Below are positions 7,048 to 28,000 of a stretch of DNA of 64,000 bases, in pieces (positions within the stretch are counted from its first letter, which is position 1; each line of letters opens with the position of its first letter). The position numbers and the translations under genes are program-made. The notes under the pieces are model-generated. The model was not told the DNA's origin. It did not search any database and was given only the letters and a program-made list of their open reading frames with translations. The stretch spans positions 1-64,000 of the forward strand of contig JAHDHQ010000014.1 in assembly GCA_020631235.1 (NCBI GenBank). The letters are read 5' to 3'. The stretch is from Saprospiraceae bacterium. Lineage in GTDB: Bacteria; Bacteroidota; Bacteroidia; Chitinophagales; Saprospiraceae.

Positions 7048-7051
7048 AATT

Positions 7052-8906: not shown

Positions 8907-9093
8907 GACACCCATAATACTATAATTTTCCTCCTCATATATACCTCTTAGGGATACTGCTCCTATATCTGATCTTATTTAGAAATCCATAATAAGCCTG
9001 AAATTTCCATTTCCCGTGGGATAGTTACTGAAAATCGAAAGCCAGTAAAGAAGAATCAAGCTTCGACTGATCTTTACGCAAAGAATTAAACCT

Positions 9094-11862: not shown

Positions 11863-11890
11863 TACTTAGTCGAAAAAAAGGGAATTGAAT

Positions 11891-11934
11891 AAAGTCTGTT
11901 TCTACCCATTGTGGTTGAGAAACAGACTTTTTTA
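11891..11934. terminator. Bidirectional terminator between convergent genes
   Basis: A 13-bp perfect inverted repeat (11891-11903 with 11918-11930) is followed by a T-run on the plus strand and has an A-run on its left flank. It sits between the stop of the plus-strand 922-aa gene and the stop of the minus-strand lipoprotein gene, so it can serve both. Confidence 0.8.
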
Positions 11935-11937
11935 TGT

Positions 11938-12492
11938 TTACTCTATTTCTATTAGAGGCATATTAAAATGACCACTAATTATTTCGCCATTAGAAAGCTC
12001 CAAATCAAAGATCAATTCTTTAGTATTAGTAAGGTCGTTGACTATTAAAGTACCTCCCACGATATCAAATTGTGAAGCTGCCGTTCCAGAAGAAGTGTCG
12101 ATCTCATGTAAAAACAATCCATTTGTAAATGTAAATGCAGACCTATCCGGACTATAAGCATAAGTGCCAGCTGCTAATACTCCTTCCTCCTCAACATTTA
12201 GGTCGACGTATATTGATTCTCCTACACCCATGTAGGTTAAGTTTTCAAAGGATAATTCTGCGGTCATCAAATAGATATCTATATCATAACTGCCACTGCC
12301 GTTATTATTTAAACCTAACTTTCGAATAAAACCTTTATCCAGAGCAAAAATTGTTTCTATGCCAGTATCGTCTTTAAAACTAAAATCGTTATTTGGAGCA
12401 CTAGGCACATCTGAATCAGCAGAACATGAAATATTTAGGAAACTAATTATTCCAAGGAAGACCATCGATTTTGTAAATAATATAAATTTCAT
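11938..12492 (-). CDS. Putative lipoprotein, function unknown
   Basis: The 184-residue product starts with a lipoprotein signal peptide whose lipobox ends at Cys23 (SFLNISC). The mature part is acidic and beta-rich, with alternating hydrophobic strands (GSYDIDIYLMTAEL, GGTLIVNDL) and no catalytic motif. It resembles small Bacteroidota lipoproteins of about 180 residues without assigned role. It is the last of several minus-strand lipoprotein genes, but 194 bases of apparently empty DNA separate it from the next one. Confidence 0.75.
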   Translation of the reverse strand: MKFILFTKSMVFLGIISFLNISCSADSDVPSAPNNDFSFKDDTGIETIFALDKGFIRKLGLNNNGSGSYDIDIYLMTAELSFENLTYMGVGESIYVDLNVEEEGVLAAGTYAYSPDRSAFTFTNGLFLHEIDTSSGTAASQFDIVGGTLIVNDLTNTKELIFDLELSNGEIISGHFNMPLIEIE

Positions 12493-12686
12493 TTGCTTAT
12501 TATATTTATTTGTGAATTCACATGGGTATTTATCTTTCCCATAAGCATAAGACCATTTTTGTAAGTAAATGGTTGGTAGTTAACTTTATTTTGAGCAAGC
12601 TTGTTTTTGAAAACTGAGTAATGTTCGGGATAACAACTTGGCCAATTAAATCAATTTATACATAAAACCAGCTATGGTTAAAAGGC

Positions 12687-13199
12687 TTAAATCTTGGCTC
12701 CTTTAAAAGTAAATTGATCAGCTAATCCCACATCTATAGCTTCCAGTATCATCAATGCGCTTAAGGAATCAGTTTCCGTATTTAATGTACCTGCTCCATC
12801 TATTTGTACATCTGAAGTGCCAAACATCGGAATCTCAAAATCAGGAACAAAGGAAGAAATAAAAATAGAATCGCCGGCTACCGTAGCTTCAGCTGGAATG
12901 ATGCCGTTTTCTGTTGTAATTTGGATGTTTACAATATTAGGTGTGCTTAAACCAGGAGAAATAGCAAATACAACTGAATCTGCATCCAACAACGCTCCAA
13001 AAGCATCAAATCTCAATTCCCCTAGATAATCTGAATAAAAATTATCTGCATCATAAGTGCAGCAATTATCGCAGTCCGAGTCAAAATCGCCTGCATTATT
13101 GGCGAAAGGATCATTGCAACCTTCCGTTTTTTTGCATGACGGAAAACAAACGGCAATGCAAACAATTAAACTAAGAAATAAAGGAAAGTTAATTTTCAT
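12687..13199 (-). CDS. Cysteine-rich lipoprotein, paralogue of the 13636-14139 product
   Basis: The 170-residue protein has a lipobox at Cys22 (CFPSC) and then a cysteine cluster of the pattern KTEGC.DP.ANN.GDFD...C..CCTYD. The rest is a small beta-rich domain ending DQFTFKGAKI. The cluster resembles the GCTDP...A.NY....C.Y motif common in exported Bacteroidota proteins. The gene at 13636-14139 encodes the same architecture with the same lipobox position and nearly the same C-terminus, which indicates tandem duplication. The role is unknown, and a disulfide-stabilised or metal-binding head at the membrane is only a guess. Confidence 0.8.
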   Translation of the reverse strand: MKINFPLFLSLIVCIAVCFPSCKKTEGCNDPFANNAGDFDSDCDNCCTYDADNFYSDYLGELRFDAFGALLDADSVVFAISPGLSTPNIVNIQITTENGIIPAEATVAGDSIFISSFVPDFEIPMFGTSDVQIDGAGTLNTETDSLSALMILEAIDVGLADQFTFKGAKI

Positions 13200-13209
13200 T
13201 TTAAGTGAT

Positions 13210-13518
13210 TTATTTGTGTTCTAATTTATTAACATAATCAAGCGTTCCCAATCGCATTCTGTAAGCAAATTTATGCTTAGGGTCTCGCTTGTTTTCTAAT
13301 TTGCAAAAGAAGCCTTGCTCAATTTTTGGGCAAATAAATCCACTAATCGAGTACTCTGATGCTCTCAAAAAGTCATAGTAGCTTGGTGATTTCAGTATTT
13401 CCAGCGTATCTACTTTTTGAATTGAATATTGTCCAAAGCTATATTCCGCATTGAAAAAGCCAATTGTCAGCATGGTAAGCACTATAAACTTTCGCTTAAA
13501 TAGGTAAGACTTTTTCAT
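13210..13518 (-). CDS. Small secreted protein, unknown function
   Basis: I prefer the Met at 13518 to an upstream in-frame Met at 13536 because it gives a proper signal peptide (MKKSYLFKRKF, cleavage after SFGQ). The mature protein has about 70 residues and two cysteines (FICPKIEQGFFCKLENK), possibly paired. It contains RMRLGTLDYV near the end and no recognised domain. It lies ten bases upstream of one Cys-rich lipoprotein gene and between the two paralogues, so it was probably transcribed with them or caught in the duplication. Confidence 0.65.
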   Translation of the reverse strand: MKKSYLFKRKFIVLTMLTIGFFNAEYSFGQYSIQKVDTLEILKSPSYYDFLRASEYSISGFICPKIEQGFFCKLENKRDPKHKFAYRMRLGTLDYVNKLEHK

Positions 13519-13635
13519 ATGGATAACAATGTACAAGGATTTAGAACATTAAGCAAATTCAGTAATGTAGAAATCAAAAAAGCTAACGCGTATGTGTAAG
13601 TGATTAGACAGGACCTGGTTTATAGTCGGTCCGCA

Positions 13636-14139
13636 TTAGATTTTCTTACCCTCAAATGTAAATTGATCACTTAAATTGTCTAAATCAGGTGCTGTAATGG
13701 TCATGTTTACTTTTAGTGAGTCAGCATCTTTATCTAATAGGCCTCCACCTTGCATGACCACATCAGAAGTGCCTAAAGGGCCCAGCTCGAAATTTGGTTG
13801 TAGCCCATTTATAATAATGGAATCTCCATCAATACGAGCACCTGGTGTAAATTCTTGAGTATCACTAGTTATTTTTATTGACACAGAATCCGGGCTGGAA
13901 GCTTCAGTAATATCAAATATTACATCTTCCGAGTCTAAGTCGCTAAAAATTAAAAAATCGATGTCTCCTAAATAGCTGCCGTGGAAATTTTCGGAGTCGT
14001 AGGTACAACAACAATTTAGATCATAATCTCCTGTATTGTTGGCTAATGGATCTGTACAACCTTCTGTTTCTTTACATGATGGGAATAAAAGAATTATCAA
14101 AAAACTAAATAGAACTGTGGGACTCAATAGATGTTTCAT
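13636..14139 (-). CDS. Cysteine-rich lipoprotein, paralogue of the 12687-13199 product
   Basis: The start at 14139 is chosen because it gives MKHLLSPTVLF and a lipobox with Cys22 (LFPSC). An in-frame Met at 14202 would add an unlikely 21-residue leader. The mature protein begins KETEGCTDPLANN, then CCCTYD, and ends DQFTFEGKKI, closely matching its neighbour at 12687-13199. The middle is an acidic beta-rich domain. It should be an anchored envelope protein of unknown role. The longer A-rich region between it and the next gene may contain its promoter, but I see no TAnnTTTG motif. Confidence 0.78.
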   Translation of the reverse strand: MKHLLSPTVLFSFLIILLFPSCKETEGCTDPLANNTGDYDLNCCCTYDSENFHGSYLGDIDFLIFSDLDSEDVIFDITEASSPDSVSIKITSDTQEFTPGARIDGDSIIINGLQPNFELGPLGTSDVVMQGGGLLDKDADSLKVNMTITAPDLDNLSDQFTFEGKKI

Positions 14140-14261
14140 TGTCTTTGCTTTATATTGTAAGACAATGGGTGTCTGAGAAATCGTTGGTGATTTTACATTC
14201 AAAGTGATTTTAAAAGCATCCTGAGTGTATTTAAAGACAAATCACCGTCATTATTTTTTAT

Positions 14262-15407
14262 TTATTTGGATTTAAACGCTTTTAATTTTCCTTCGAAAAT
14301 CTCATATTGATGCAATTTACAGGGTTTAGGACCATTAAAAAGATTTCTTTTGCTAGTAGGTTTTAATCCTATCTTTTTTAAGGCATCTAGATTACCAGTA
14401 ATAAGCCAGATATTGCTTCCTTTCATTTGATGTTTCATAACACTTCCAATGTTGCCGTAAAAAGCATTTATGTCCCTGATTTTTATTCTGTCATCATAAG
14501 GTGGATTTAAAAACACGGTGCTTGGAGGTAAATCTTTAATATCAAAATAGTCTGCTCTTTTTAATTTTAAGCCAGGAGCAAATGGCTTGAGTTTTTCAAA
14601 ATTTGCTTTAGCAAGACTAAGACTTTTATCATCTGTATCCGATGCTATAAAAGGGTAGCGCTGGATGCTTATGCCATCATCGGCTTCTTGTTTAATGTCA
14701 TTCCACAATTCTTCGTCATACATATTCCAATGCTGGAAAGAAAAGCTCGGGTTAAAATATCTAGCCGGAATATGATTAAGTTTCATAATGGCTTCACAAG
14801 TGAAGGTTCCTGATCCACACATTGGATCGATCATTTGTGGCAAACTATGGAAATGACTCCAATCAATAATGGCAGCTGCTAAAACCTCACTTACGGGCGC
14901 TGGACCAGAGAAACTTTTATATTTTCTGATGTGTAAAGATTCGCCCGAACTATCCAGCGAAATATTACATTGATCCTTATAAATCTGTACATTAATCCTT
15001 ATATCAGGTTTTTTTAGTTCAATGTTGGGACGCTTTCCAAACTTTGATCTAAATTGATCAACAATCGCATCTTTTGCTTTGAGTGCGACAAAATTAGAAT
15101 GGTTAAAATTTGAGGCAGTAGCTACAGCATCAATGGCTAATGTTTTATCTACATCAAAGAACTCATACCATTTTATGCTAGCTATTAAATCATACAAATC
15201 TTGCTGATTTTGTACACTCCCTGATTTTATATGGACTAAAACCCTAATAGCAGTTCGCAAACAATAATTAGCTTTATATAATAAATCTTTTCTCCCTTCG
15301 AAAGACACCGCTCTTCGGAGAATCTCTATGTTTTCGCCGCCTAGATTTTGAATTTCTTGAGCTAATAATTCTTCTACTCCTGCAATGGTTTTTGCAATAA
15401 TCTTCAT
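14262..15407 (-). CDS. THUMP-domain class I SAM-dependent RNA methyltransferase (RlmL/TrmN-like)
   Basis: The 381-residue protein has a THUMP RNA-binding domain at about residues 45-155. A Rossmann methyltransferase domain follows with the SAM motif DPMCGSGT at 194-201 and the catalytic FLNPPYDD motif near 300. NPPY is typical of N-methylation of guanine in RNA. It matches the family annotated as the 23S rRNA G2445 N2-methyltransferase (the N-terminal half of E. coli RlmL), but tRNA m2G enzymes share this plan, so the exact target is open. The carboxylase gene begins upstream and ends five bases before this start, which suggests cotranscription. Confidence 0.88.
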   Translation of the reverse strand: MKIIAKTIAGVEELLAQEIQNLGGENIEILRRAVSFEGRKDLLYKANYCLRTAIRVLVHIKSGSVQNQQDLYDLIASIKWYEFFDVDKTLAIDAVATASNFNHSNFVALKAKDAIVDQFRSKFGKRPNIELKKPDIRINVQIYKDQCNISLDSSGESLHIRKYKSFSGPAPVSEVLAAAIIDWSHFHSLPQMIDPMCGSGTFTCEAIMKLNHIPARYFNPSFSFQHWNMYDEELWNDIKQEADDGISIQRYPFIASDTDDKSLSLAKANFEKLKPFAPGLKLKRADYFDIKDLPPSTVFLNPPYDDRIKIRDINAFYGNIGSVMKHQMKGSNIWLITGNLDALKKIGLKPTSKRNLFNGPKPCKLHQYEIFEGKLKAFKSK

Positions 15408-15412
15408 GTAGT

Positions 15413-17038
15413 TTATGTTTGTATAACCCCAACATTAAAAGGCTTGATTTCCACTTTACTAGCCATTTCTAAGCCTAACTTAAGTACTTTTCTTGTATCT
15501 CTAGGATCTATAATTTCGTCTACCCATAATCTTGCAGCAGCATAATAAGGCGTTGTTTGCGCATCATATCTTTGTTTGATTTTTTCGATTAAGGCCTGTT
15601 CATCTTTTTCAGAGAATGATTCGCCTTTCGCTTTTTTGGATGAGATTTGGATTTGAGCGAGCACTTTGGCCGCTTGACTTCCACCCATCACGGCAAGTTT
15701 AGCTGATGGCCAAGCCACTATTAATCTTGGATCATAGGCTTTACCGCACATCGCATAATTACCCGCGCCGTAGGAATTACCTATAATTACAGAAAACTTA
15801 GGTACAGTTGAATTAGATACAGCATTGACCATCTTTGCTCCATCTTTAATTATACCACCATGCTCAGATCTTTTTCCCACCATAAAACCGCTCACGTCAT
15901 GGAAAAAGATGAGCGGGATTTTTTTCTGGTTACAATTTAAAATAAATCGAGTGGCTTTATCAGCAGAATCTGAATAGATCACTCCACCAAATTGCATTTC
16001 ACCTTTTCCATTTTTGACTACATCGCGATTGTTAGCCACTATGCCTACAGAAAAACCATCAATTTTAGCATAAGCACAAACAATCGTTTGACCATAAGTA
16101 TCTTTATAATAGGTCATTGATCCATCATCAACTATGCAAGCCAACAACCTTCTAACATCGTAAGGTTTGGTTCTTTCTTCAGGTAAAATGCCCAGTATAT
16201 CCTTGGATGATAAAGCTGGTTTTTTTGATTCTTTTCTAGAATAAGCCTCTGTTTTATTGGTGTTAATATTGGAAAAAATATCTCTGATTTTCTGTATGCA
16301 TGCCTCGTCATTCTCCATGATATAATCTGTAACTCCAGAAATAATCGAATGTGTTTCAGCTCCACCCAAGGTCTGCTTATCCACTTGTTCGCCTATCGCA
16401 GCTCTAACCAAATAAGGGCCTGCTAAAAAGATGGATCCAGTATCTTTGACAATAAGCGCTTCATCAGACATAATCGGGAGATAAGCACCACCTGCAACAC
16501 AAGCGCCCATGACTGCGGCTATTTGAGGAATACCTTTGGCAGACATGACTGCATTATTTCTAAAGATTCTCCCAAAATGTTCTTTATCAGGAAAGATTTC
16601 GTCTTGCATAGGTAAAAACACACCCGCACTATCTACTAAATAGACTATGGGCAATTCGTTTTCCATAGCGATTTCTTGTGCTCTTAAATTCTTTTTACCT
16701 GTAATGGGAAACCAGGCTCCGGCTTTAACGGTAGCGTCATTAGCTACAATGATACATTGGACTCCTTCCACATAAGCGATTTCGACGACAACTCCTCCTG
16801 CTGGTGCTCCTCCATATTCGGCATACATCTCGTAACCTGCAAATGTGCCTATTTCAAAAGAATCTTTGTCTTTATCTTTTAATAGATTGATTCTTTCTCT
16901 TGCGGTTAGCTTGCCTTTACTGTGCTGTTTTTCGATTTTCTTCTTACCTCCACCCAGCATGATTTTTTCTTTCAAACGATCTAGCTTTGATACCTCTAAA
17001 CCATTGAAGTCTGCATTTTTGTTAAACTCCAAATCCAT
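15413..17038 (-). CDS. Acyl-CoA carboxylase beta subunit, methylcrotonyl-CoA carboxylase-like
   Basis: This is the carboxyltransferase subunit of a biotin-dependent acyl-CoA carboxylase. I place the start at MDLEFNKNADF (17038), giving 541 residues; an in-frame Met at 17065 would add nine atypical residues. Paired crotonase-like domains are visible: GKLTARERI near residue 45, GAYLPIMSDE, DVSGFMVGKRSEHGGI and GNSYGAGNYAMCGKAYDPR. The C-terminal AARLWVDEIIDPRDTR and the GG.QAA.VLA segment are closer to methylcrotonyl-CoA carboxylase (leucine breakdown) than to the propionyl-CoA enzyme. The biotin-carboxylase alpha subunit is not in the window, so the substrate stays an inference. Confidence 0.88.
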   Translation of the reverse strand: MDLEFNKNADFNGLEVSKLDRLKEKIMLGGGKKKIEKQHSKGKLTARERINLLKDKDKDSFEIGTFAGYEMYAEYGGAPAGGVVVEIAYVEGVQCIIVANDATVKAGAWFPITGKKNLRAQEIAMENELPIVYLVDSAGVFLPMQDEIFPDKEHFGRIFRNNAVMSAKGIPQIAAVMGACVAGGAYLPIMSDEALIVKDTGSIFLAGPYLVRAAIGEQVDKQTLGGAETHSIISGVTDYIMENDEACIQKIRDIFSNINTNKTEAYSRKESKKPALSSKDILGILPEERTKPYDVRRLLACIVDDGSMTYYKDTYGQTIVCAYAKIDGFSVGIVANNRDVVKNGKGEMQFGGVIYSDSADKATRFILNCNQKKIPLIFFHDVSGFMVGKRSEHGGIIKDGAKMVNAVSNSTVPKFSVIIGNSYGAGNYAMCGKAYDPRLIVAWPSAKLAVMGGSQAAKVLAQIQISSKKAKGESFSEKDEQALIEKIKQRYDAQTTPYYAAARLWVDEIIDPRDTRKVLKLGLEMASKVEIKPFNVGVIQT

Positions 17039-17133
17039 AATAAACTTGGTTTGTTGAAGGCACAAAATAGTGATTTCAAACGGGAGCTAATGGTTAAATC
17101 GAGCGAATAAAAGAAAAAGATATAAGCCTGCTA

Positions 17134-18657
17134 TTATTGGCTAACATTTGACACTAAGTAACTGATGTGCTTAGATTGACTGAGTTGTATCAGTTTTACA
17201 CCCGACTCAGTAACACAAGTACTTATTTTACCTTCTTGAAAGTAAATATTAGCAGCACTAGCATTTATCAAGGAATTCGATTGGTCAGATACTAAATATG
17301 CTTCTCCATGAGTGGTATTGAAGAAAAGTATTTGAGACTTGCTTTTGTTTTTTAGGTTTAGTGATTTATAGCTGAGTGAGTTGTTTACTTTGCTGCTTTC
17401 ACTAGCATAGTTTTTCATGTTTGATAGATCTAAAAATGCCAAAGTTTCATAACTGCAAGCTTCTGGAGCATCAAGTTCTCCTGTAGCTTGTTGTCCAGTT
17501 GCCAGTGCTAAATTGGTCTTGGCTAATGTATTAATCCTTTCATCCTCACTAGAAGACAGTTTATGCAAGGTTTCCATTGGTGCAGCAGCTCTGGCTCCTA
17601 ATAAATTTTGAACTAAAGCTTCGGTCATTAATAGTGCAGGAAAGTCTTCAAAATCAATATTATTTCTTTTGGTTTCTAAGAATCCAAGAGCTTCATGATA
17701 GTTTTCCATCATGGCTAGACTGATCGCATAATTATTAACAGCTGCTGGATTGAAAGCATCTTGATTAAGCACTGCTTTAAACAACATTTGACCTTTTTCT
17801 ATCAGCTTTATTCTATGGGACATTTCTTCAGCATTTAGATCCTTAGAGTCACCTGTTTTCTTAGCTTTTTGCAGTCTATCACTTCCGCTAATCTCGATAG
17901 GGAAAATAAATGGATCGATAGTATAGCTCAATGAGTTTATAGCTTCTAATAAGTAGTTTACACCTGCATTGTTATTTACCTCACTGCCTTTGTATGTTTT
18001 GCTTATTTTTTCATAGCATTGGGCACTCAATTCGTGCTGACCAAGTAAGCTAAGTTTGGTGCCTGCATCAAAAAGCAGGATTAAAGAGTCTACTTGGTTT
18101 TTTACCTTTTCTGCCGTCTGATTACGTAGAGCTTTAGAAGGGTAATTAACTAATTGTTCGTCCGTCAACTCATACTGCTCATAAATCTTATTCAGTATTT
18201 CTGGGAAGACACGGTGTATTTTATAGCCAGCAACATAAGCACCAAAAGCACCAAAAATATCGGCTTCATGCTCTTTTTTCTTCAAAATATGGTGAGCACA
18301 TTTTGTGCTCACTTTATCATAAGCTAAAAAGCTAGTGTTTTCATCTTCATGAAGATGATCTTGAAAAGCATGTGCCAGTTCGTGCCCAATGATAAAAGCA
18401 ATGGCCGCATTTTTATCATCTCCAAAAGTTTGACAAATTTCCATGGCTTTTTCTTCGATTTGGATTTTGTTGCTTCCAGGGAAATAGGCAGCAACAAAAT
18501 CCTTTGATTGCACTAATTCGATGCTAGGTAGTTCTATTCGAGTATCTCCAAATTGTCTATACAAATCTTGTAAGATAACTTCAGCATCTGTAGTTGAGTT
18601 TGCCAAGAACAATTGGCATTGAGATATTAAGATAAAACACATAATGATCTTTCTCAT
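17134..18657 (-). CDS. Exported M48-family zinc metalloprotease with TPR-like C-terminal region
   Basis: The 507-residue protein has a signal peptide ending near LANST (about residue 20). The zinc motif HELAH is at 92-96, and the third ligand is probably Glu129 in EHEAD, as in M48 (HtpX/Oma1/BepA) peptidases. Residues about 180-400 are helical with repeat-like character (LGQHELSAQCYEKI, YHEALGFLETK), resembling TPRs. The last 90 residues are Ser-rich and contain a possible beta segment. It lacks the transmembrane helices of HtpX and resembles the BepA plan of a periplasmic protease plus TPR. It is the third gene after the ECF sigma factor and the membrane anti-sigma-like gene, so regulated proteolysis in that pathway is a plausible role. 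Confidence 0.82.
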   Translation of the reverse strand: MRKIIMCFILISQCQLFLANSTTDAEVILQDLYRQFGDTRIELPSIELVQSKDFVAAYFPGSNKIQIEEKAMEICQTFGDDKNAAIAFIIGHELAHAFQDHLHEDENTSFLAYDKVSTKCAHHILKKKEHEADIFGAFGAYVAGYKIHRVFPEILNKIYEQYELTDEQLVNYPSKALRNQTAEKVKNQVDSLILLFDAGTKLSLLGQHELSAQCYEKISKTYKGSEVNNNAGVNYLLEAINSLSYTIDPFIFPIEISGSDRLQKAKKTGDSKDLNAEEMSHRIKLIEKGQMLFKAVLNQDAFNPAAVNNYAISLAMMENYHEALGFLETKRNNIDFEDFPALLMTEALVQNLLGARAAAPMETLHKLSSSEDERINTLAKTNLALATGQQATGELDAPEACSYETLAFLDLSNMKNYASESSKVNNSLSYKSLNLKNKSKSQILFFNTTHGEAYLVSDQSNSLINASAANIYFQEGKISTCVTESGVKLIQLSQSKHISYLVSNVSQ

Positions 18658-18694
18658 AACTACTAAATTTTAAAAGTGATTTTTAAGGTATATC

Positions 18695-19594
18695 TTAAAG
18701 TATAGACAATAGTCCTTTTGCAGAGTCCTGGTGTTTATGTCCGTTGTTACCTGCAATATTACTTAGCATATCCGATGCGGTTTTTGTGTTTATGTGCAGA
18801 TTGCACAAAGCTAGTTCGTATTGAGCTTCTTGATTGACATCTTTGTCCTGTGATGTTTCCAAAAAGCTAGCTAAGGATTTAGCAGCAACTGCATAATCTC
18901 CATTATTCATGGCACTTTTTGCGTAGTGGTAAAGTGCAGTTTGGTAATCTGCTACAGGCTCACTGTATCTTTGTGTGTATTTATACAAGGTTTGTTTTGC
19001 ATCTGCCCACTTAGCCTTTTTAAATTGTTTTAAACCAATCGTGAGTGTATCTATTCTGTATTGTTCGGCTAATCTTTTGGCTTCCAATTCCTCAGGGGTT
19101 AAGCCTTGATAATCGGCCATGGCTGCAGAATCGCTGACCACTCCTCTAGCAAATCCCGAAGAGGCTAAAGCGTCCAGTTTGTCGTTTGCAAATTGGCTCT
19201 CCATAGTATAATTATCCGCCATGACTTGATTTAAATCAAGTGCTTTGTTTGTGGAGTTAAATAAGTAAAATGCTCCTGCTAACAATACAAAACTTGCGGC
19301 GATTAGGAAGAATTTTCTACTTCCGGCTGGTTTGTTTTTTTGATTGCTCATATCTATTATTTTTGATGTGTTATTTTGATTTTTATTTGATGTTATCAGC
19401 GCTTTCGCCGCTTGTTTAATCTTTTGATTTTCTTGTTTTTTGATTCCTTTTAAGATAGATTTATAGAGTACAAATTCGCGCTTGAAATCTTCGTTATTTT
19501 CTAACTTTTGATTAAAATCTTCTTGTTCTTTGTCCGTTAATTTCCCTTGAATAAAGGCATCAAAGAGATCTATGTTTTTTTCAAAGTTTTTCAT
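18695..19594 (-). CDS. Membrane protein with anti-sigma-like N-terminus and TPR-like outer domain
   Basis: Residues 1 to about 70 are a charged helical region (LFDAFIQGKLTDKEQEDF..KLENNEDFKREF), the pattern of the N-terminal sigma-binding part of many Bacteroidota anti-sigma factors. A single transmembrane segment lies at about 93-111 (FFLIAASFVLLAGAFYLF). The C-terminal 180 residues should be periplasmic and contain TPR-like helices (ALYHYAKSAMNNGDYAVAAKSL, AQYELALCNLHI). The gene begins 12 bases after the ECF sigma stop. The anti-sigma role is inferred from position and topology; no zinc-finger HxxxCxxC motif is present. Confidence 0.72.
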   Translation of the reverse strand: MKNFEKNIDLFDAFIQGKLTDKEQEDFNQKLENNEDFKREFVLYKSILKGIKKQENQKIKQAAKALITSNKNQNNTSKIIDMSNQKNKPAGSRKFFLIAASFVLLAGAFYLFNSTNKALDLNQVMADNYTMESQFANDKLDALASSGFARGVVSDSAAMADYQGLTPEELEAKRLAEQYRIDTLTIGLKQFKKAKWADAKQTLYKYTQRYSEPVADYQTALYHYAKSAMNNGDYAVAAKSLASFLETSQDKDVNQEAQYELALCNLHINTKTASDMLSNIAGNNGHKHQDSAKGLLSIL

Positions 19595-19606
19595 GATTTC
19601 AAAATT

Positions 19607-20149
19607 TTAATGCTTTAGAACTTTGTTTCGTAATCCATTCATGCATCGGTTCTTTTTTACTCTAGCAAATTGGTCAGTATAGCCCATGGTTTTCGCTATA
19701 TCTTTAAGCTTTTCTTTGTAGAAATAATACCTTTTTAGCATTTCTTTACATTCGTCAGCTAAAGTTTCAAGTGCTTCCATGATGGCGTCTATTTGCTCAT
19801 CTTTCTCCTCTTGTTCATCCACTTCATCATTTGTATATTCACTACTAAGTGTAAGGAACTGATTTTCGTTATCACTTATTTCGATTTTTTTCTTTCTCAA
19901 TTGGTTGAGCCAAGAATATTTGCATATACCGAATAGATAGGTAGACAAACTTGAGTCTCCTTTAAATTTTTTGGATCGTATGTTATTAACAAGGGTAACA
20001 CAAGATTCAGAGAAGATATCTTCAGCATCTTGTTCATTTCCTTTATTCTGTAAAATGTAGCTTTTGACTTTGGGATATGCCTCTTGATAGAGTATATTCA
20101 ACTGCTGATTTAGATCAAAAGAAAAGTCATCTAAATAGGACATAGGCAT
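19607..20149 (-). CDS. ECF-type RNA polymerase sigma factor
   Basis: The 180-residue protein has sigma region 2 (DAEDIFSESCVTLV, then STYLFGICKYSWLNQLRKKK, residues about 40-90), an acidic linker with many Glu and Asp (EVDEQEEKDEQID), and region 4 with a helix-turn-helix (CKEMLKRYYFYKEKLKDIAKTMGYT). It would direct polymerase to a dedicated promoter set. The start at 20149 is MPMSYLDD, and an alternative Met lies six bases downstream. It is the first gene of a sigma / anti-sigma-like / M48 operon and is divergent from the caspase gene across only 67 bases. Shared or autoregulated control is therefore likely. Confidence 0.88.
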   Translation of the reverse strand: MPMSYLDDFSFDLNQQLNILYQEAYPKVKSYILQNKGNEQDAEDIFSESCVTLVNNIRSKKFKGDSSLSTYLFGICKYSWLNQLRKKKIEISDNENQFLTLSSEYTNDEVDEQEEKDEQIDAIMEALETLADECKEMLKRYYFYKEKLKDIAKTMGYTDQFARVKKNRCMNGLRNKVLKH

Positions 20150-20216
20150 GTAGACTTGTTTCTAATATTTATTAACTTGTATTCCATACATCTAAATTAA
20201 TGGGAATTTTTACCCA
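20150..20216. promoter_or_regulatory. Short divergent promoter region between ECF sigma and caspase genes
   Basis: These 67 A+T-rich bases must carry promoters for both directions. No TAnnTTTG element is visible on either strand. An AAC trinucleotide at about 20173-20175 could belong to an ECF-type -35 (GAAC-like) element, but I cannot define a matching -10. Control by the neighbouring ECF factor itself is an inference from the arrangement. Confidence 0.4.
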
Positions 20217-23200
20217 ATGATGCATCGGAAAAAAATGAAAAATAATACAAAAATCTCGTTAATCGGCATCTTGATTATCTCATTATTGATGATCAGAGCT
20301 TCCGTGAGCGATCTTACCTACAATTGGATGTATACTTTCGACGGCAAACCTGGAGATAATTATCAAGCGGTGTTGGAGAATTCTTTAGGCGAATACGTTG
20401 CTTTTGGTCAGACAAACAACTTTAGATATAAAGGTGAAGATGTGCTGATAACCAAGTGGGAAAAATCAGGAAGAGTCCTGCTGGATAAAAATGTTGGAGG
20501 TTTAGAAGATGAATTTGTCAAAGATGCTCAAATATACAAGAGTGGTTATGTAATAGTTGGATACACGAAATCTGCAAATAGCCAAACTCCTTGGCTTGCT
20601 TTTTTTGATAAACAGCTCAATTTAGTCAAAGACTTCTCTTTTGATGCCTACGATCAAGGAGTCTTTAATAAACTTATAATCAATGATGATCATATATATT
20701 TATTTGGTCATAATGGAAAAGAATCATTGGCTCTAAAAGTGAATGATCAAGGTGAAATATTGGCCACTTTTGATGATCCACAAAAAGGAGAAATGGTAGA
20801 TGCAGAATGGATCAATAATCATCTGTATATTTTAGCTAAAGCCTGCATAGATTGTTACACTTCAAAATCAGTCTATTCTTTGCTAATAAAAGCTGATGCA
20901 GAAACGCTTGTTAAGCAGCAATCAGAAGTGTTGAGAAAAAACCAAATAGAAATAGCTGAGCAATTAGAATACGTCAATGATCAATTATACGCAATAGGAT
21001 TATTTTTTGATCCCAAATTAAACATACAATCCAGTCTTGTTAGCTATAATTTGGACAATCTACAGGACGAAAAATTTGCAAGTTATGGAAAGAACTGGGA
21101 AGATGAACTTTTAGGTATAGAACCACAAAGTAATGGAGATCTTTTGCTTTATGGGAAGTCCTTATCAGATGCTGAGTCTCGAAAAAGAAGAGAAACTTAT
21201 CGTGCTTGGCAATTTCGAGTAAATAAAGATCTACAAGTAGTCGGTGATGAGATGTTTTATGGGAAGGGAAAGTATAATGTCTTCAATGATGCAATGATGA
21301 GTATTGATGGTTCGCTAGTAGTTGTTGGCTCATCCGATGATTTACCATTTTTAATTGATCTTGGGAATACTGAAAACCAAAAAATTCCAACTGGACAAAC
21401 CAAAAATAAAGTATTCTTATTAGATGATTATTTTGTCGAAGAAGCAACGGATGGTACGCTAGAAATTACAGAAAACTTCGAATATGTTTTTGATATCGAA
21501 AACAGATCAGACACAAAGATTAATAAAGTAAAACTTGATGTTAAACTGGAAGGATTAGATGGCAATGAAGTAGAAGTGCCTCCTTACATTGTAATACCTA
21601 GTTTAAAACCTAGAAAAACCACTAAAGCGGTTATCCCAATAACGCCCAAAAAATTAGTGGATGGGACCTTCGAAATAATTGTGGAATTAGATGGTGAAAT
21701 ACTTACAAAAACTGAAGTAAGAACAAAGGAATTAAAGACAGTTGTTGTAGATTTGGCACCTTCAATCGAACTAATATCCATCGATTCTAGCAATTTCACC
21801 GCTATAGCTCAATTAAACTTAATGTGGTCAAATTTAGGAAACAAGGCATTGGACCAAGCAAAAATCACTTTATCACCTAGCAGTAATTATAATGTGATCG
21901 AAGCTTCTCCGCCGCCTGAAAGTTTAAATCCAGCTGAAAATTTTGAATCAAATCTAATTTTATCTTTAGGTGATTTAGATCAAGATCAACTCTTTTTTAA
22001 TCTGGTCATTACTGATGATGAAGGCTATGAAAAATTAGAACAGTTTTCTTTAGATGTCCAAAATATAAATCAAACCCTTGATCAATACAAAGAAGCTACA
22101 GAATTGGCCAAAATAAAAGAAAGTAGAGCTGCAAACCTCACCAATTTAGTTAGATTAAGCAATATTTCGACGAACTTAGAAAAGACCACAGATCGAAAGT
22201 TGCCCACCGATTTACCTGCTATTGAAGCTGTCACCAAAATAGATATCGCCAAAGTATTTTCGAATATGAGCATACATTGGGAAGGAGTTCAAGGGAGAGA
22301 CTTCGTCGAAACCAAGAAAGAAAAGGCAAGCATTAATGTATCCATTCAAAATATGGACGAATCCATAGATAGCCTTAGGATAATATATAATGATCAACCA
22401 CTCACTCTCGCTAAAAACCATATCCGCTCCAGCTATCAACAAGAAGTGTTTGAAAGTGAAGAAGGACTGGGCACATTTATAACTTCGGAGATACTTCTAA
22501 TTGATGGAAAAAATGAGTTCTCTTGTGAGTTTTTTGTGGGTGAACATTCTTTTGTTATTGATGACAAATTAAACTATCAATACGAAGAAGAAAAAGGGAC
22601 TTTGCATTTAGTTTCCATTGGTGTGCCTGACTTAGTCGGTGCTGAGAAAGATCGCTTGAAATACACCACAAAAGATGCTGAAGACTTTGTGGGCTTATTC
22701 AAATCATCAAATGTGAAAGATGATTATAAGGAGATAAAAGAACATGTGCTGAATACAGAAGAAACTACAACACAACTGGCGATCATGCAATTTATCAGAG
22801 ATTTCGAATTACAATTAGAATCGCCTAAAGATTTATTAGTAGTATATCTATCTTCTCATGGTTTTATTTCTCAAAACAATGGAGAGCTTTATATCTCTAC
22901 CAGTGACTACAGCCATAAATCGAAAGAGTTTTCTTGCATCAATTTTCAAGACGTTATTTTATTAAAACTGCTTGATTTGTCCATCCCTAAAGTGCTGTTT
23001 TTAGATGTATGCCATAGTGGAGCGATTATTAATGAAGCTGGTGATTCTGAAGTCTCAGAAGAATCACAAAAAATCAATACCTTTTTAGAACAAAAGGTGG
23101 CTGCAGATAAGCAGCTATATATGGTCTCTTCCTCTAATAAAGGTCAATATTCTTATGAGTTTTCCAAGCTTGAAAATTCTGCTTTTATCGCAGCTATTAA

Positions 23201-23411
23201 AGAATCAATAAACAATGAGGCGTATAGTGCATGTGCACTTGGCGATATATATCCAGATGCTAATGATGACGGAGTTTTAAAACTGACTGAGATGTTTCAG
23301 TTTGTCAGCTTGCGAGTGCCTTGCATCGTAAAAACTAATCGAAAAAATGCTGCTCAAAACCCAATGAGCAAAACCGTAGAAAGAGACCTGAAATTGTTTG
23401 ATTATTTTTAG
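20217..23411 (+). CDS. Exported caspase-family (C14-like) cysteine protease with large N-terminal sensor-like region
   Basis: The 1064-residue protein has an N-terminal hydrophobic segment (residues about 14-27) after a basic start, so it is exported or membrane-anchored. Residues 30-400 show repeated beta motifs (EYVAFGQTNN, GYVIVGYTKS, HIYLFGHNG, SLVVVGSSDD) like a propeller. Residues about 410-640 look like one or two CARDB/immunoglobulin-like domains. The C-terminal part from about 800 is a caspase p20-like domain. The catalytic dyad is His881 in SSHGF and Cys932 in LDVCHSG, and both are intact. Caspase-fold proteases usually cut after Arg, Lys or Asp; the specificity here is unknown. It is divergent from the ECF operon and followed by a small secreted protein gene. 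Double Met at the start leaves 20217 or 20220. Confidence 0.82.
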   Translation: MMHRKKMKNNTKISLIGILIISLLMIRASVSDLTYNWMYTFDGKPGDNYQAVLENSLGEYVAFGQTNNFRYKGEDVLITKWEKSGRVLLDKNVGGLEDEFVKDAQIYKSGYVIVGYTKSANSQTPWLAFFDKQLNLVKDFSFDAYDQGVFNKLIINDDHIYLFGHNGKESLALKVNDQGEILATFDDPQKGEMVDAEWINNHLYILAKACIDCYTSKSVYSLLIKADAETLVKQQSEVLRKNQIEIAEQLEYVNDQLYAIGLFFDPKLNIQSSLVSYNLDNLQDEKFASYGKNWEDELLGIEPQSNGDLLLYGKSLSDAESRKRRETYRAWQFRVNKDLQVVGDEMFYGKGKYNVFNDAMMSIDGSLVVVGSSDDLPFLIDLGNTENQKIPTGQTKNKVFLLDDYFVEEATDGTLEITENFEYVFDIENRSDTKINKVKLDVKLEGLDGNEVEVPPYIVIPSLKPRKTTKAVIPITPKKLVDGTFEIIVELDGEILTKTEVRTKELKTVVVDLAPSIELISIDSSNFTAIAQLNLMWSNLGNKALDQAKITLSPSSNYNVIEASPPPESLNPAENFESNLILSLGDLDQDQLFFNLVITDDEGYEKLEQFSLDVQNINQTLDQYKEATELAKIKESRAANLTNLVRLSNISTNLEKTTDRKLPTDLPAIEAVTKIDIAKVFSNMSIHWEGVQGRDFVETKKEKASINVSIQNMDESIDSLRIIYNDQPLTLAKNHIRSSYQQEVFESEEGLGTFITSEILLIDGKNEFSCEFFVGEHSFVIDDKLNYQYEEEKGTLHLVSIGVPDLVGAEKDRLKYTTKDAEDFVGLFKSSNVKDDYKEIKEHVLNTEETTTQLAIMQFIRDFELQLESPKDLLVVYLSSHGFISQNNGELYISTSDYSHKSKEFSCINFQDVILLKLLDLSIPKVLFLDVCHSGAIINEAGDSEVSEESQKINTFLEQKVAADKQLYMVSSSNKGQYSYEFSKLENSAFIAAIKESINNEAYSACALGDIYPDANDDGVLKLTEMFQFVSLRVPCIVKTNRKNAAQNPMSKTVERDLKLFDYF

Positions 23412-23517
23412 AAAGCCATTTTATTTTAAGATAAGATGATAACCTTTTCTTGGCTACAACACTAAGTGGTGTAAAGAGTGTATAGACACTTAAATATTAA
23501 ATATAAAACTTAGAGTT

Positions 23518-23847
23518 ATGAGAGCTATTATTCCAATGTTGACTTTTCTATTTGCTTTTACAAGTACATATGCTGAAATGACGAATCCAATTAATCCACC
23601 AGTGGCGGCTGTCCAGTTTGATCTACAAAAGGAATTTGTATTCATTACTTTTTCTGACAAAGTAGCCATTGAAAAAAAGTGCCTTATTGAAGTTTTTAAT
23701 GAAAAAGGCAAGCGCATTTTTAAAAGTAAAACAAAGAAAGGTGAGAAAATATCTGAGTTGAATATGCATCAATTAAAACAAGGTACATACTTGATTCAAA
23801 CCACAGTGGGCGAAGTAGTTTACAGAGAAACTTACAGAAAAGCCTAA
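23518..23847 (+). CDS. Small secreted protein resembling a stand-alone sorting-type beta domain
   Basis: The 109-residue product has a signal peptide ending near TYAEM (about residue 20). The remaining 89 residues have the strand pattern of a T9SS type A sorting domain or a DUF3244-like immunoglobulin domain: LIEVFNEKGKRIFKSK, then LNMHQLKQGTYLIQTT and a final EVVYRETYRK. No cargo domain precedes it, which is unusual. It lies 106 bases downstream of the caspase gene and is closed by a clear terminator. A role as partner, inhibitor or substrate of the caspase is speculative. The 103-residue product of 47612-47923 has a similar design. Confidence 0.65.
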   Translation: MRAIIPMLTFLFAFTSTYAEMTNPINPPVAAVQFDLQKEFVFITFSDKVAIEKKCLIEVFNEKGKRIFKSKTKKGEKISELNMHQLKQGTYLIQTTVGEVVYRETYRKA

Positions 23848-23865
23848 GCGTGAAATTGATATAGT

Positions 23866-23909
23866 AGGAGCAAGCGCCTAAAATAATAGACCCTTGCTCC
23901 TGATTTTTA
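23866..23909 (+). terminator. Rho-independent terminator after the small secreted protein gene
   Basis: AGGAGCAAG at 23866-23874 pairs perfectly with CTTGCTCCT at 23893-23901, followed by a T-rich run. It separates the caspase block from the PorP/SprF block. Confidence 0.8.
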
Positions 23910-23921
23910 GCTTGGTTTGTT

Positions 23922-23929
23922 TATTTTTG
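23922..23929 (+). promoter_or_regulatory. Bacteroidota -7 promoter element (TATTTTTG) for the PorP/SprF gene
   Basis: TATTTTTG matches TAnnTTTG and lies 33 bases before the ATG at 23962, directly after the preceding terminator. I see no well-spaced TTTG at -33. The position also argues against the upstream in-frame ATG at 23917 as the start. Confidence 0.45.
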
Positions 23930-23961
23930 AATGTTACCCAATAATCGGTAAAATTAAACGG

Positions 23962-24960
23962 ATGACTGCCTTGCCTATCTTGAGAACTGTACTGATAAAT
24001 ATTTGCTTGTGCATAACCACATGGCAATTATGCGCACAGCAATTGCCGTTATTTACTCAGTATAGCGAATATCAAGGGGTTATAAATCCAGCATCCATCA
24101 ACTACGATTATTTTCAAGATGGCTTTGAAATCGCATTAGGGACATCTGTTAGAGAGCAATGGAACGGCATACCTACTTCTCCAAAAACTCAATTAATGCG
24201 TGGCGAGTATTTTTATGAAACCCGCAACAAATTTAGTTTGTTGTCCGGTGGGTATTTGATTAACGATAAAGTAGGCCATGTCTCGACTACCGGAATTTAC
24301 GGTCGTATTGCTTCGGTATTGCGATTAGATGATGGCTGGGGTGCCAGTGTTTCCAATGGTGGATTATCCGTCGGTTTATTGGGAGGACTAGTACAATATA
24401 GAATCGACACAGAAAAATTGCGAACCATCGATCAAAGCGAAGATCCAAGATTAGCTGGAGGAATTAATTTGATCAGGCCTGATTTTGGCTTAGGAGTGAG
24501 TTTTTACAAACGGATTGGTAGAGGACGATGGTATGATTATTTTTTTGCAGGAATTTCGATTCCTCAAATCTTAGGACCCAATATAGAATTTACATCAGTC
24601 GATGGCAATCAATTTAAGATTGATCGGGTAGCTCATTATTATGGCAGTCTTTCCTATTACTACACTTTAGGAGAAGATACACATATTGAATTTTCATCTT
24701 GGCTGCGCTGGGTTAAAAATGTGCCCCTTAGTTTTGATTTTGTTTTTAAATATAGATTTAGCCAATGGATGTGGGTAGGAGCTGGATTAAATTCGGCAAG
24801 ACATTTTCATGCTGAATTTGGACTTAGTTTTGATGAAGTAATGGCCAGTAATAACCGGGTAAAGTTGGCTTTTTCGTACAATCCTTTAGGACCTGACTTC
24901 ACTGCACAATTTGGTAACACTTTCGAAATTAATTTGTCCTATATGATTGATAATTATTAA
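23962..24960 (+). CDS. PorP/SprF family T9SS outer-membrane protein
   Basis: The protein belongs to the PorP/SprF family of outer-membrane beta-barrel-like proteins that assist secretion or anchoring of T9SS substrates. The start at 23962 (332 aa) gives a good signal peptide cut after LCAQ. The mature start QLPLFTQYSEYQGVINPAS is the family hallmark (..P.y.qy....~NPA~). Alternating strands with aromatic ends fill the rest, including RFSQWMWVGAGLNS and the C-terminal INLSYMID. Two giant T9SS type B substrates follow, the first only 51 bases downstream. This repeats the known pairing of SprF-type proteins with adhesin-like substrates such as SprB. Confidence 0.9.
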   Translation: MTALPILRTVLINICLCITTWQLCAQQLPLFTQYSEYQGVINPASINYDYFQDGFEIALGTSVREQWNGIPTSPKTQLMRGEYFYETRNKFSLLSGGYLINDKVGHVSTTGIYGRIASVLRLDDGWGASVSNGGLSVGLLGGLVQYRIDTEKLRTIDQSEDPRLAGGINLIRPDFGLGVSFYKRIGRGRWYDYFFAGISIPQILGPNIEFTSVDGNQFKIDRVAHYYGSLSYYYTLGEDTHIEFSSWLRWVKNVPLSFDFVFKYRFSQWMWVGAGLNSARHFHAEFGLSFDEVMASNNRVKLAFSYNPLGPDFTAQFGNTFEINLSYMIDNY

Positions 24961-25011
24961 TGGCCCGTTCTTAGCAAAACATGACATTAAGTTACGAGTG
25001 AATGGTATAAA

Positions 25012-28000
25012 ATGAAGATTTCCAAAAAAGACATATTCGCTTATTTGGTTTTTATTTGGTTTTTTCAATGCCAAATAATAGCACAAGCACCAACTTCTTT
25101 ATGTTTGGATGCACCCATCATGTGTGATCTTGATGATTTGGATGGCTTTAGCGGAACAATGAGCGCTATACCTACCTTAGGCCCTAATCCTTTGTGTTCA
25201 AGCACCATGCCCAATAATATGCATTGGTGGGCTTTTGTAGCTAATGGTACAGTAATAAGTATCGATGTATTATTGTCTAATTGCACCTTAGAAAGTGGTA
25301 TGATGGGTGCAAATTTTGGAGTATATGAGAGTTGTAGTTTTGGAACACCTGTTTGGTGTAGTGATTTTTGTTTTGATGGTTTGTCTACTAATCTACCTAT
25401 TACAGGTTTAACCATTGGGCAGTCTTATTATTTGTATATGGATGGGTGTAATGGGAGTGTGTGTGATTATACTTTTGCTATTAATAGTGGAGGCGGAGGT
25501 GTTGTTCATCCAAATGATGCATGTTCAGGCGCTATTGGTTTAACAGATGGAATATCAGTGACCGGAGCTACTAATGTATGTGCAACTCCAGATTATGATG
25601 ATTGTAGTAATGGTGGGAATACTAATACCGTTTGGTATTCTTTTACCCTAGGACCTTCAGACAACTCGGCTTCCTTTATTATTACCTCTAATGACGATGG
25701 AATAAGTGATTTCAATGCAGAATTATACACTGATTGTGCGGGTTCTTTTGTAGCAAGCAATTGTAGCAATGCTGATGGAATGCTGGTCGAATTTTCTTGT
25801 TTGATACCTAATACAACTTACTTTTTGCAAATAGGTACAGACGAAATCAATGCTTCAGCTAATTATGAAATTTTACCAGATTTTTTTGATGCAGGAGGTT
25901 TCGACAGTTGCACTGATCCAAACTTGTTAAGTCCTATAAGTTGTGGTGTTACTTTAAGTGAAATTGAAAATATTACAGGTTTTTGCCCAGAATTTTCCGA
26001 CTTAGGAACAAGCTGTTCTTTTTCTACTACTTCGACGGCATGGTATGAATTCAGTGTTCCTCCCGGCGAAGAAATATTTAGCATTACAAATCATACAGGT
26101 CCTGGTTATGCCTTATTTAATATGCAGTGTCCCACGGGTTCACCCATTGGCAATGACTGTTTTATGGGAGATCATGATTATGATGTTTCTGCAGGTGGAA
26201 CATTTTATTTGGCAATGATGGGCGATGGTGCTGGAGACTATATTTTTGATTATTCCTTTAATTATCAAGGAGGAGCATGCGGGCTTGCGACGGATTTAGG
26301 ACCCTTGGATTTAAATTGTATCCAAAATACTTTTACAGGTGTTCCAGAATCTTGTCCAGATGGTGCGGCTACGGGTTGTATGTCTGGAATGGATGGAAGT
26401 TGGTATACCTTTACACTTAATGCAAGTTTGGGAACAGAGATCGAAGTTGAAGATTTAGACGGCGGATCTGCCTTTGAAATTTATACAGGTACAGATTGCA
26501 ATAATCTAACAAGAGTTTCAGACTGTCAGCTTAGTTTTTCTGCCAATGTTGGGAATCAATATTGGGTGTTCCTCAGTCAGAACTCACTAATCGCCTTAAC
26601 TTCTTGTCCATGTGATATCACTAATGTTCTGCCGATTGTCAATTGTTTAGACAATAGCACAACAGATAATAATCTAGATGATATTATTGAGGTAAGCCTA
26701 CAGGTAGCTGGTCAAAACTTAGGTTCTTCCTATGGAATCACAACTGATATAGGCAGTATAACTCCACAAAATGGTAATTATTTAACCTTAACAACATTCC
26801 AGTTGCAGGCTGGATCTGCTGGATCGGGAGATGTTATGCTGACACTAACTGATGATGTGGATCCCAATTGTACCTTCACCTTGACAATTACTGATCCAGG
26901 CTCCTGTTCTCCTGATTGTGCTATCGTTGAAAGTGGCCTTACAAATATAGATTGTGATGATAACCTAAGCCCTGATAATAATGGCGATGATCTAATAACT
27001 TTTGATTTGAACCCAAGCGGTTTTAATTTAGGCTCAATATATTCAGTGAGTAGTACATCGGGTGCAGTTATTCCCACAAGTGGCTTTTACGGAGAAACAA
27101 CTAGTTTTAGTCTAGATCCAGGCACTGCCGGAGGAGGCAATGTAACGATCACTTTACAGGATGTAGCAAACATTGGTTGTGATTTAGACGACTTGATTAT
27201 TGATCCAGGATCGTGTTCTTCAGATGTGGGTGGAGAGATAACTTATTCTATTAGTAACACCTGTTTAGCAAAGGAAAGAGATTTTAATTTTGGAGGGACC
27301 GCAACAGATAATTTGACAGATGTCCTTGTTTTAGACAATAGTGATTATTTATTTGTAGGTACTTCTGAGTCATCAGATCAAGATGTGTCCGATAACTTTG
27401 GATCAACAGATGTTTGGGTATATAGATGGAATGAAGTGGATGGGATCATTTGGGAAAGAAACTATGGAGGTTCTCTCGAAGAATCTTTTTCGAAAATATT
27501 GGCTCTGCCAAATAACGAATTTTTAATTGCTTGCAATTCTTTCTCATCTGATGGGGATGTCAGTGCAAATTACGGCGATCAAGATGTTTGGCTTTTTAAA
27601 ATCGATGAAACAGGGAATATTATTTGGGAACAAAATTTTGGTGGCAGTCAAGAGGAGATATTTAATGATTTTATTGCAGTTGGCAATAATGAATATGTAA
27701 TAGTTGGAAGCACGCAATCAAATGATGTCGATGTTTCCAATAATTATGGTGGAGTAGATGGATGGATGGTTAAGATAGATGGATTGGGCAATATTATTTG
27801 GGAGAGAAACTATGGAGGTTCGGGAGGAGATAGATTTTATGCCGCAGTTTTACATTCTAACCAAACTTTTTTTATTGGAGGGTCCTCATCTTCTCAAGAT
27901 GGTGACATAAATAATTCAATAGGTTCTGGTGACGGATGGATTTTAAATATTGATCAAAGTGGCAATATTCTTTGGGAACAATCCTATGGAGGAACTGGTT

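Follow-up and report, generated by a model that had tools for sequence, protein, structure and literature searches.

To our knowledge, bacterial caspase homologues are widespread and their role is mostly not known. CalpL-CalpT-CalpS and SAVED-CHAT-PCaspase are type III CRISPR relays that operate in the cytoplasm and are activated by cyclic oligoadenylate. Here, we describe a locus in a 64,000-nucleotide stretch of the genome of a Saprospiraceae bacterium (assembly GCA_020631235.1, contig JAHDHQ010000014.1, positions 1 to 64,000; hereafter the window). It encodes an extracytoplasmic function (ECF) sigma factor, a candidate membrane anti-sigma factor with a TPR-like outer part, and two proteases that are predicted to be exported, namely an M48 metallopeptidase and a C14 caspase. 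Relatives in Saprospiraceae and in part of the wider Bacteroidota carry the same kind of unit with a modular composition, which suggests a protease-linked circuit for surface sensing that has not been described so far.

The locus shares the protease-anti-sigma-ECF sigma logic of the CalpL-CalpT-CalpS and SAVED-CHAT-PCaspase relays, and the second of them also has a caspase-type protease. Unlike these cytoplasmic relays, the window proteases are predicted to reside outside the cytoplasm. The sigmaE-RseA-DegS-RseP pathway likewise involves a membrane anti-sigma factor with an outer domain, and a site-2 protease gene is present in the window's genome (G000:C6:14626-15876; PF02163, 186 bits), although its link to the module is putative. 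The difference from that pathway is that the candidate site-1 enzymes here are the caspase and an M48, C1, or CHAT protease, which are encoded with the sigma factor. We know of no case in which BepA (YfgC) is encoded beside a sigma/anti-sigma pair or a caspase. In predicted architecture, the M48 enzyme is a candidate relative of BepA, since TPR-like repeats, which are weak in the window protein, come after an exported M48 domain in both (PMC7950410).

In type III-E CASP, the TPR-CHAT protease Csx29 cuts Csx30, a protein that binds CASP-sigma and inhibits it, and this cut is proposed to lift the inhibition (PMC10028731). This Craspase system and the locus both have a clan CD cysteine protease that is genetically tied to an ECF-type sigma factor and its inhibitor, which at the locus is a candidate one. 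However, the window protease is a C14 caspase that is predicted to be exported and not a TPR-CHAT protein (CHAT proteases occur at other loci), the candidate inhibitor is a membrane protein, and no CRISPR partner (array or gRAMP) was seen among the direct repeats of positions 8000-25000 or the four proteins scanned. Moreover, a second protease of the M48 or C1 type is involved, and the substrate is only putative. Metacaspase operons with sigma-70 genes were noted in 2012 for Myxococcus, Anaeromyxobacter, Haliangium, Sorangium, Ralstonia, and Fibrobacter (PMC3501461), in which a caspase homologue lies alongside a sigma factor as it does here. Unlike the present case, the relevant section of that survey names no Bacteroidota with such operons and mentions no anti-sigma factor with them. 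The same survey notes that Haliscomenobacter hydrossis, a member of the Bacteroidetes, has 28 metacaspases, and it classified 70 of 217 caspase operons as lacking a known function. The ECF54 group also has a protease context, which includes CHAT, subtilase, and carboxypeptidase genes; proteolytic control was proposed, and these sigma factors are said to act without an anti-sigma factor (PMC8999054). In contrast, a TPR-type anti-sigma gene adjoins the sigma gene here. Because caspase-sigma operons and the ECF54 protease context have already been noted, the kind of arrangement is known in outline. A literature search, with most subscription papers outside its coverage, found no description of exactly the sigma/anti-sigma/M48/caspase set. 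As predicted from sequence, the unit departs from the type III-E and RseA/DegS/RseP logic in its extracytoplasmic placement, in having a C14 caspase, and in a second protease that can be exchanged.

Recurrence of the sigma/anti-sigma/protease unit

The five open reading frames of the original prediction were recovered at the same positions, and Pfam and NCBIfam scans support their families. On the minus strand, the ECF sigma gene (19607-20149; 180 aa) is followed by the anti-sigma candidate (18695-19594) and the M48 gene (17134-18657; 507 aa). The caspase gene (20217-23411, plus strand; 1064 aa) diverges from them across 67 intergenic bases (20150-20216). Searches for relatives established a recurrent modular unit that consists of an ECF sigma factor, a candidate TPR-type membrane anti-sigma factor, and proteases predicted to be exported, one of which usually belongs to clan CD.

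One line of evidence comes from a bait that is blind to the caspase. With a four-row M48 alignment, matches were found in 76 of 248 genomes of the family and, among 345 genomes sampled from the class, in eight more, all from other families. The neighbourhoods of 40 M48 loci, which are part of the matches listed, were scored for ECF sigma and anti-sigma genes within 3 kb and for caspase and PorP genes within 8 kb. Among 20 high-ranking Saprospiraceae loci after the four seeds, 18 have an ECF sigma gene, 19 a TPR anti-sigma gene, 14 a caspase gene, and six a CHAT gene; none has a PorP gene. These 20 loci span 14 genera, and the 14 with a caspase span 11. For 12 further loci, a set that includes two high-ranking ones, the corresponding counts are seven, six, five, one, and zero, and for the eight loci of other Bacteroidia families two, two, five, two, and zero. 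With random placement at the caspase counts of each genome, 0.35 caspase-bearing loci would be expected among the 20 (tail 1e-21 for the observed 14). PF00656 confirms the caspase of 12 of the 20 loci among the matches listed (tail 2e-17); both tails treat the placements as independent, an assumption that does not hold for related genomes. The PF00656 matches of one genome do not include the caspase of its module locus (L244), which is assigned by an in-house caspase profile. In two genomes (G089 and G109), the single PF00656 match is located inside the module.

With the caspase as bait, matches were found in 44 of 150 genomes of the same family. A set of 73 distinct caspases of at least 600 aa that carry a predicted beta-propeller (hereafter propeller caspases) was compiled from 60 stretches, the window, and 80 named loci, with split and shorter proteins dropped. 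A second protease is encoded within six genes of 46 of the 73 (papain-type C1 for 30, CHAT for 12, and M48 for five, with one locus having both C1 and CHAT); the C1 and CHAT identities are based on Pfam scans of representatives. In 16 of the 17 cases with an ECF sigma gene nearby, a TPR anti-sigma gene and a second protease gene are also present. Thus, an M48 enzyme as second protease, as originally predicted, applies to the window and the M48 loci, but it is one of three alternatives (M48, C1, and CHAT).

Gene order further suggests that the members of the unit belong together. In six M48 loci (L244, L245, L249, L250, L254, and L281), the sigma, anti-sigma, M48, and caspase genes all share one strand; three gene orders occur among these loci, and the gaps range from -142 to 197 bases. 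L281 belongs to another family of the class. A caspase gene divergent from the sigma gene, as in the window, is found in five loci (L246, L247, L248, L251, and L257). In five C1 loci (L037, L042, L046, L051, and L061), a single strand carries the sigma, anti-sigma, C1, caspase, and PorP genes, and neighbouring genes are -58 to 257 bases apart. The cultured Fibrisoma limi and F. montanum (Spirosomataceae) have consecutive genes on one strand for a C1 protease, an approximately 740-aa caspase, an ECF sigma factor, and a TPR anti-sigma factor. These two blocks occupy 7081-12638 of L151 and 7116-12628 of L152, and by eye their caspases start with WD-like repeats.

A natural deletion provides additional information. 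The genome of a relative of the same genus (G188) has no match to the M48 alignment and none to the window caspase. In its syntenic stretch (L267, on a 186-kb contig), the carboxylase gene that follows the M48 gene in the window is retained (83% identical). A homolog of the fifth predicted gene (44% identical) lies 146 bases from it, and the M48, anti-sigma, sigma, and caspase genes are missing between the two. The four genes therefore behave as a unit and the fifth lies outside it, so the tiny secreted protein noted in the original prediction does not belong to the module. In the window, this gene (23518-23847, plus strand) encodes a protein of 109 aa with a type-A C-terminal domain (CTD) of the type IX secretion system (T9SS), as indicated by PF18962 (29.0 bits; cut-off 27) and TIGR04183 (25.2 bits; cut-off 23). 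Beyond the small protein, the PorP and giant-protein genes of the window are likewise missing in G188, such that a larger rearrangement is possible.

These patterns leave little room for a chance adjacency of the sigma operon and the caspase gene. ECF sigma factors and caspases are numerous in the family (43 ECF matches in the window's genome and up to 27 caspase matches per genome among 30 genomes searched), but the placement statistics, the counts from the M48 bait, the co-absence in G188, the one-strand blocks, and the Fibrisoma blocks together make this explanation extremely improbable, and it was rejected. The original prediction had named a neighbourhood not conserved in relatives as one finding that would speak against it; in Saprospiraceae, the neighbourhood is conserved and modular.

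Components, predicted compartment, and probable regulation of the module

The ECF assignment of the sigma factor is clear from TIGR02937 (82.3 bits; cut-off 42.9) and Sigma70_r2 (36.4 bits; cut-off 24), and two Pfam models of region 4 scored below cut-off (17.0 and 16.9 bits). In a tree of 79 sigma factors, the window sigma falls inside a set of 25 rows that all come from M48 loci (support 95/93). A wider set of 42 rows, with weak support (87/80), contains 29 sigma factors from M48 loci, 11 from C1 loci, and two from CHAT loci, and none of the 29 other sigma factors taken from the window's genome. Labels by protease type are clustered in the tree (0 of 500 shuffles as low). A recurrent gene of about 196 aa in C1/caspase loci was considered as a further sigma factor, but its Pfam scan was empty and it was left uncounted.

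The anti-sigma candidate is identified by its hydrophobicity, the helices of its AlphaFold2 (AF2) model, a weak NF052375 match (19.4 bits versus a cut-off of 100), and its place next to the sigma gene in most module loci. It would consist of an N-terminal helical part, a transmembrane segment (approximately 19253-19312), and an outer TPR-like part (approximately 18701-19234). The latter stays under every listed Pfam TPR cut-off, and the AF2 model is helical with low confidence (mean pLDDT 61.5). The M48 protein matches PF01435 (22.0 bits; cut-off 20.3) and has its HELAH motif at residues 92-96 (18370-18384) and the downstream Glu129 at 18271-18273. Among 49 aligned M48 proteins, HExxH is present in all, and Glu129 is conserved in 47 and replaced by Asp in two. 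Its weak TPR-like C-terminal half scored 18.1 bits with TPR_12, under the cut-off of 30.1, and no BepA model is among its NCBIfam hits. Searches with phmmer against sequences of known structure found no match for the caspase, anti-sigma, and M48 proteins (E<=0.1) or the sigma factor (E<=0.001).

By a crude hydropathy test of the N-terminus, which is not a signal-peptide predictor, 67 of 73 propeller caspases, 48 of 49 M48 proteins, 41 of 41 C1 proteases, 17 of 19 CHAT proteases, and 27 of 27 other caspases have a hydrophobic N-terminus, compared with 12 of 51 sigma factors. The strongest hydrophobic segment of the anti-sigma proteins begins at residues 79-124 in 44 of 52, and other segments are possible. 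Hydropathy thus agrees with the earlier proposal that places the outer part of the anti-sigma factor in one compartment with the proteases. In the C1 proteases, the catalytic Cys is present in 40 and the His in 41 of 41.

An upstream element offers a possible link between the sigma factor and its targets. Of 25 module sigma genes, 14 are preceded within 150 bases by the heptamer TGATAAC in sense orientation (mean of letter permutations 0.35; 0 of 420 as high), which lies 26-33 bases before the annotated start in eight of the 14; several of these 14 are pairs from one genus. No such site was found upstream of 30 sigma genes of the window's genome, the module sigma included. Compared with shuffles, the heptamer is above the maximum upstream of the sigma genes (14 versus 10), and a search for spaced dyads there found nothing that exceeds shuffles. 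Because the heptamer was discovered in the sigma set, the caspase set is the fairer test: TGATAAC lies within 100 bases upstream of four of 19 caspase genes (permutation mean 0.14; none as high). It also precedes three of 25 M48 genes, with no permutation as high, and three of 23 anti-sigma genes, with five other permutations equal or higher. Some sites at junctions before the anti-sigma or M48 gene (in L244, L247, and L248) may be ends of coding sequences and were not counted as promoters. Genome-wide, the pattern is in excess over its reverse in two relatives (24 versus 11 and 14 versus 5), and in nine of 11 inspected stretches the sites are solely intragenic or have no sense gene within 200 bases. 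In the window, one exact copy (23437-23443) lies 81 bases ahead of the small T9SS gene. A block of about 25 bases in the gap between sigma and caspase is conserved in the single same-genus relative that has the module, which is too little for a promoter call. Elsewhere, two small secreted proteins from two genera that are alike by eye (L245 9047-9484, 145 aa; L296 3302-3721, 139 aa) have TGATAAC 74 and 28 bases upstream, respectively, and may be further targets of module sigma factors. At L253, a patatin-like gene (by eye; 6252-7379) with TGATAAC 74 bases upstream is located between the caspase gene and the M48, sigma, and anti-sigma genes.

The earlier suggestion that the caspase is expressed with or by the sigma factor is therefore upheld in part: the one-strand blocks (six with M48 and at least five with C1) and the upstream element in some relatives fit, but the element was not found at the sigma or caspase gene of the window. 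From the shared strands, gene blocks, and heptamer in some relatives, the sigma factor probably controls the caspase gene, and control of the protease genes as a group is likely.

Proposed surface sensing and competing explanations

Taken together, the locus may be a modular envelope signalling unit with exported proteases arranged around a dedicated ECF sigma factor, a reading that we consider about evenly balanced between right and wrong. The sigma factor would be held by a membrane anti-sigma factor whose TPR-like domain projects outside the cytoplasm, where the C14 caspase and a second enzyme (M48 here; papain-type C1 or CHAT elsewhere) would also reside. It would drive its own operon and, directly or via read-through, the protease genes. 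The proteases would respond to a cue from the envelope, which the caspase propeller or the TPR domains might bind and which might be linked to PorP/T9SS surface proteins; the signal is hypothetical. Once active, they would cleave the outer domain of the anti-sigma factor, and a further cut by the M50 site-2 protease would then free the sigma factor and amplify the response. That the anti-sigma factor is a protease substrate is likewise hypothetical, and we lean slightly against it. A more specific proposal is that the exported caspase serves as the site-1 enzyme or that it starts a cascade of two proteases, the second being M48, C1, or CHAT. In either role, it would lead to cleavage of the anti-sigma TPR domain and thereby convert surface events into transcription. 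Such a circuit would be an extracytoplasmic, CRISPR-free counterpart, and possibly a relative, of the Craspase/CalpL relays with exchangeable proteases; we put it forward tentatively, as rather unlikely in this exact form. The recurrent unit gives exported caspases a candidate substrate (the anti-sigma factor) and a candidate readout (the promoters of the sigma factor). If the proposal is correct, caspase-linked transcription would exist outside CRISPR immunity, and an exchangeable design of protease, anti-sigma factor, and sigma factor would be present in Bacteroidota.

Several observations weigh against the signalling unit. Just 17 of the 73 propeller caspases have an ECF sigma gene nearby and 14 lack any scored neighbour, although many contigs end nearby and the sigma profile seems to miss divergent sigma factors (e.g., at L080). 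Six of the eight M48 loci from other families lack sigma and anti-sigma genes near the M48 gene. The sigma factors of L281, L294, and L295, the second sigma factor of L250, and the two Fibrisoma rows group with other sigma factors. The protease-type labels are not single clades (seven changes for M48 and five for C1); being clustered yet not clades, they fit protease exchange and independent recruitment alike. Three of the four caspase genes with TGATAAC (L247, L248, and L258) are from one genus, the fourth being L064. TGATAAC with up to one mismatch is absent from the 200 bases upstream of the window's sigma and caspase genes, and the 6-mer GATAAC is under the shuffle maximum (15 versus 16), with no 6-mer above it. 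Finally, the proteases could be outputs only.

This last alternative is a serious possibility, though we judge it less probable than even. It holds that general proteases free the sigma factor of an envelope-stress regulon, and that the caspase and a BepA-like M48 enzyme clear misassembled envelope proteins, such as PorP and giant T9SS cargo, without ever touching the anti-sigma factor. The BepA protein of E. coli, which combines an M48 protease with a TPR domain in the periplasm, acts on components of outer-membrane assembly (PMC7950410). The sharing of gene blocks or the upstream element between protease and sigma genes is expected under this explanation, and PorP genes lie near 37 of the 73 propeller caspases. 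However, with TPR scores below cut-off, orthology with BepA is putative, and the second protease switches family (M48, C1, or CHAT) while the sigma factor and TPR anti-sigma factor stay constant, a pattern that is more readily explained by an additional interaction of the proteases with the conserved regulatory part.

Alternatively, the propeller caspase may serve a T9SS surface apparatus (PorP/SprF and giant cargo), for example in processing or quality control, with the sigma module as an optional regulator; we regard this as possible but somewhat unlikely. The same 37 PorP neighbours count in its favor, several of them in a caspase-giant-PorP series. So does the downstream region of the window, where a PorP/SprF-family outer-membrane protein (23917-24960, plus strand; PF11751, 106.8 bits) and a surface protein of 3112 aa (25012-34350, plus strand) are encoded, given just 11 PorP matches in the whole genome. 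This giant protein has PARCEL-type repeats (TIGR02167, 33.4 bits; cut-off 30) and a weak type-B T9SS sorting domain (TIGR04131, 31.7 bits; under the cut-off of 35). On the other hand, none of the 40 M48 loci has a PorP gene within 8 kb, including two with propeller caspases, and the Pfam and NCBIfam hits of the window caspase to E 0.1 include no type-A or type-B T9SS sorting domain. Consecutive genes for a caspase, a giant protein, and PorP/SprF were observed in seven loci (L043, L052, L060, L062, L068, L069, and L128), and the giants of L043 and L052 have weak T9SS type-B sorting domains below cut-off. At the locus of Flavilitoribacter nigricans (L101), the stretch examined shows no sigma gene.

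A role in defence or regulated cell death, with the released sigma factor or the caspase as the agent of cell killing or arrest, is improbable. Type III-E CRISPR pairs a clan CD protease with a sigma inhibitor and an ECF sigma factor (PMC10028731), and one module locus has the patatin-like gene with the upstream element (L253). Against this, the proteases look exported, and PADLOC, applied to the four module proteins of the window, gave no match at E up to 0.01, the other window genes not being scanned for cas genes. Moreover, the direct repeats at positions 8000-25000 of the window are two families of imperfect copies, neither of which resembles a CRISPR array.

Architecture of the caspase and its relatives

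The caspase domain of the window protein (approximately 22656-23366) matches PF00656 with 52.8 bits (cut-off 21.4). The predicted catalytic pair, His881 (22857-22859) and Cys932 (23010-23012), is intact as originally reported, and neither residue varies among the 17 aligned relatives. Among the propeller caspases, including that of the window, the His is present in 72 of 73 (one gap) and the Cys in 71 of 73 (two Ser); the aligned set of other caspases has each in 25 of 25. The AF2 model (mean pLDDT 76; pTM 0.48) arranges the protein as an N-terminal hydrophobic helix, an all-beta stretch at approximately residues 37-384, Ig-like domains, a long helix (615-650), and the caspase domain. The all-beta stretch (20325-21368) is read as a beta-propeller. 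Foldseek places CylK, sialidases, DDB1, and a chain of the BAM complex among its best matches, which we take to be propeller proteins. The long helix is fully aligned in just two of the 17 rows, both from the genus of the window.

The window's genome has a single other caspase match (G000:C38:7836-8630), in a protein of 650 aa with a different architecture in which the caspase domain is N-terminal. The nearest ECF match, which is the sole one on that contig, is about 39 kb away. At five loci (L057, L059, L063, L065, and L066), the caspase and propeller are encoded by separate genes near a C1 protease gene, together with two proteins of about 195 and 260 aa that lack a Pfam match; no sigma or anti-sigma gene was found at these five loci. 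At L056, in a sigma-anti-sigma-C1 block, a caspase-like protein that by eye apparently lacks the catalytic His and Cys (2861-4249) is encoded directly ahead of an intact propeller caspase, and it may be a pseudo-protease partner.

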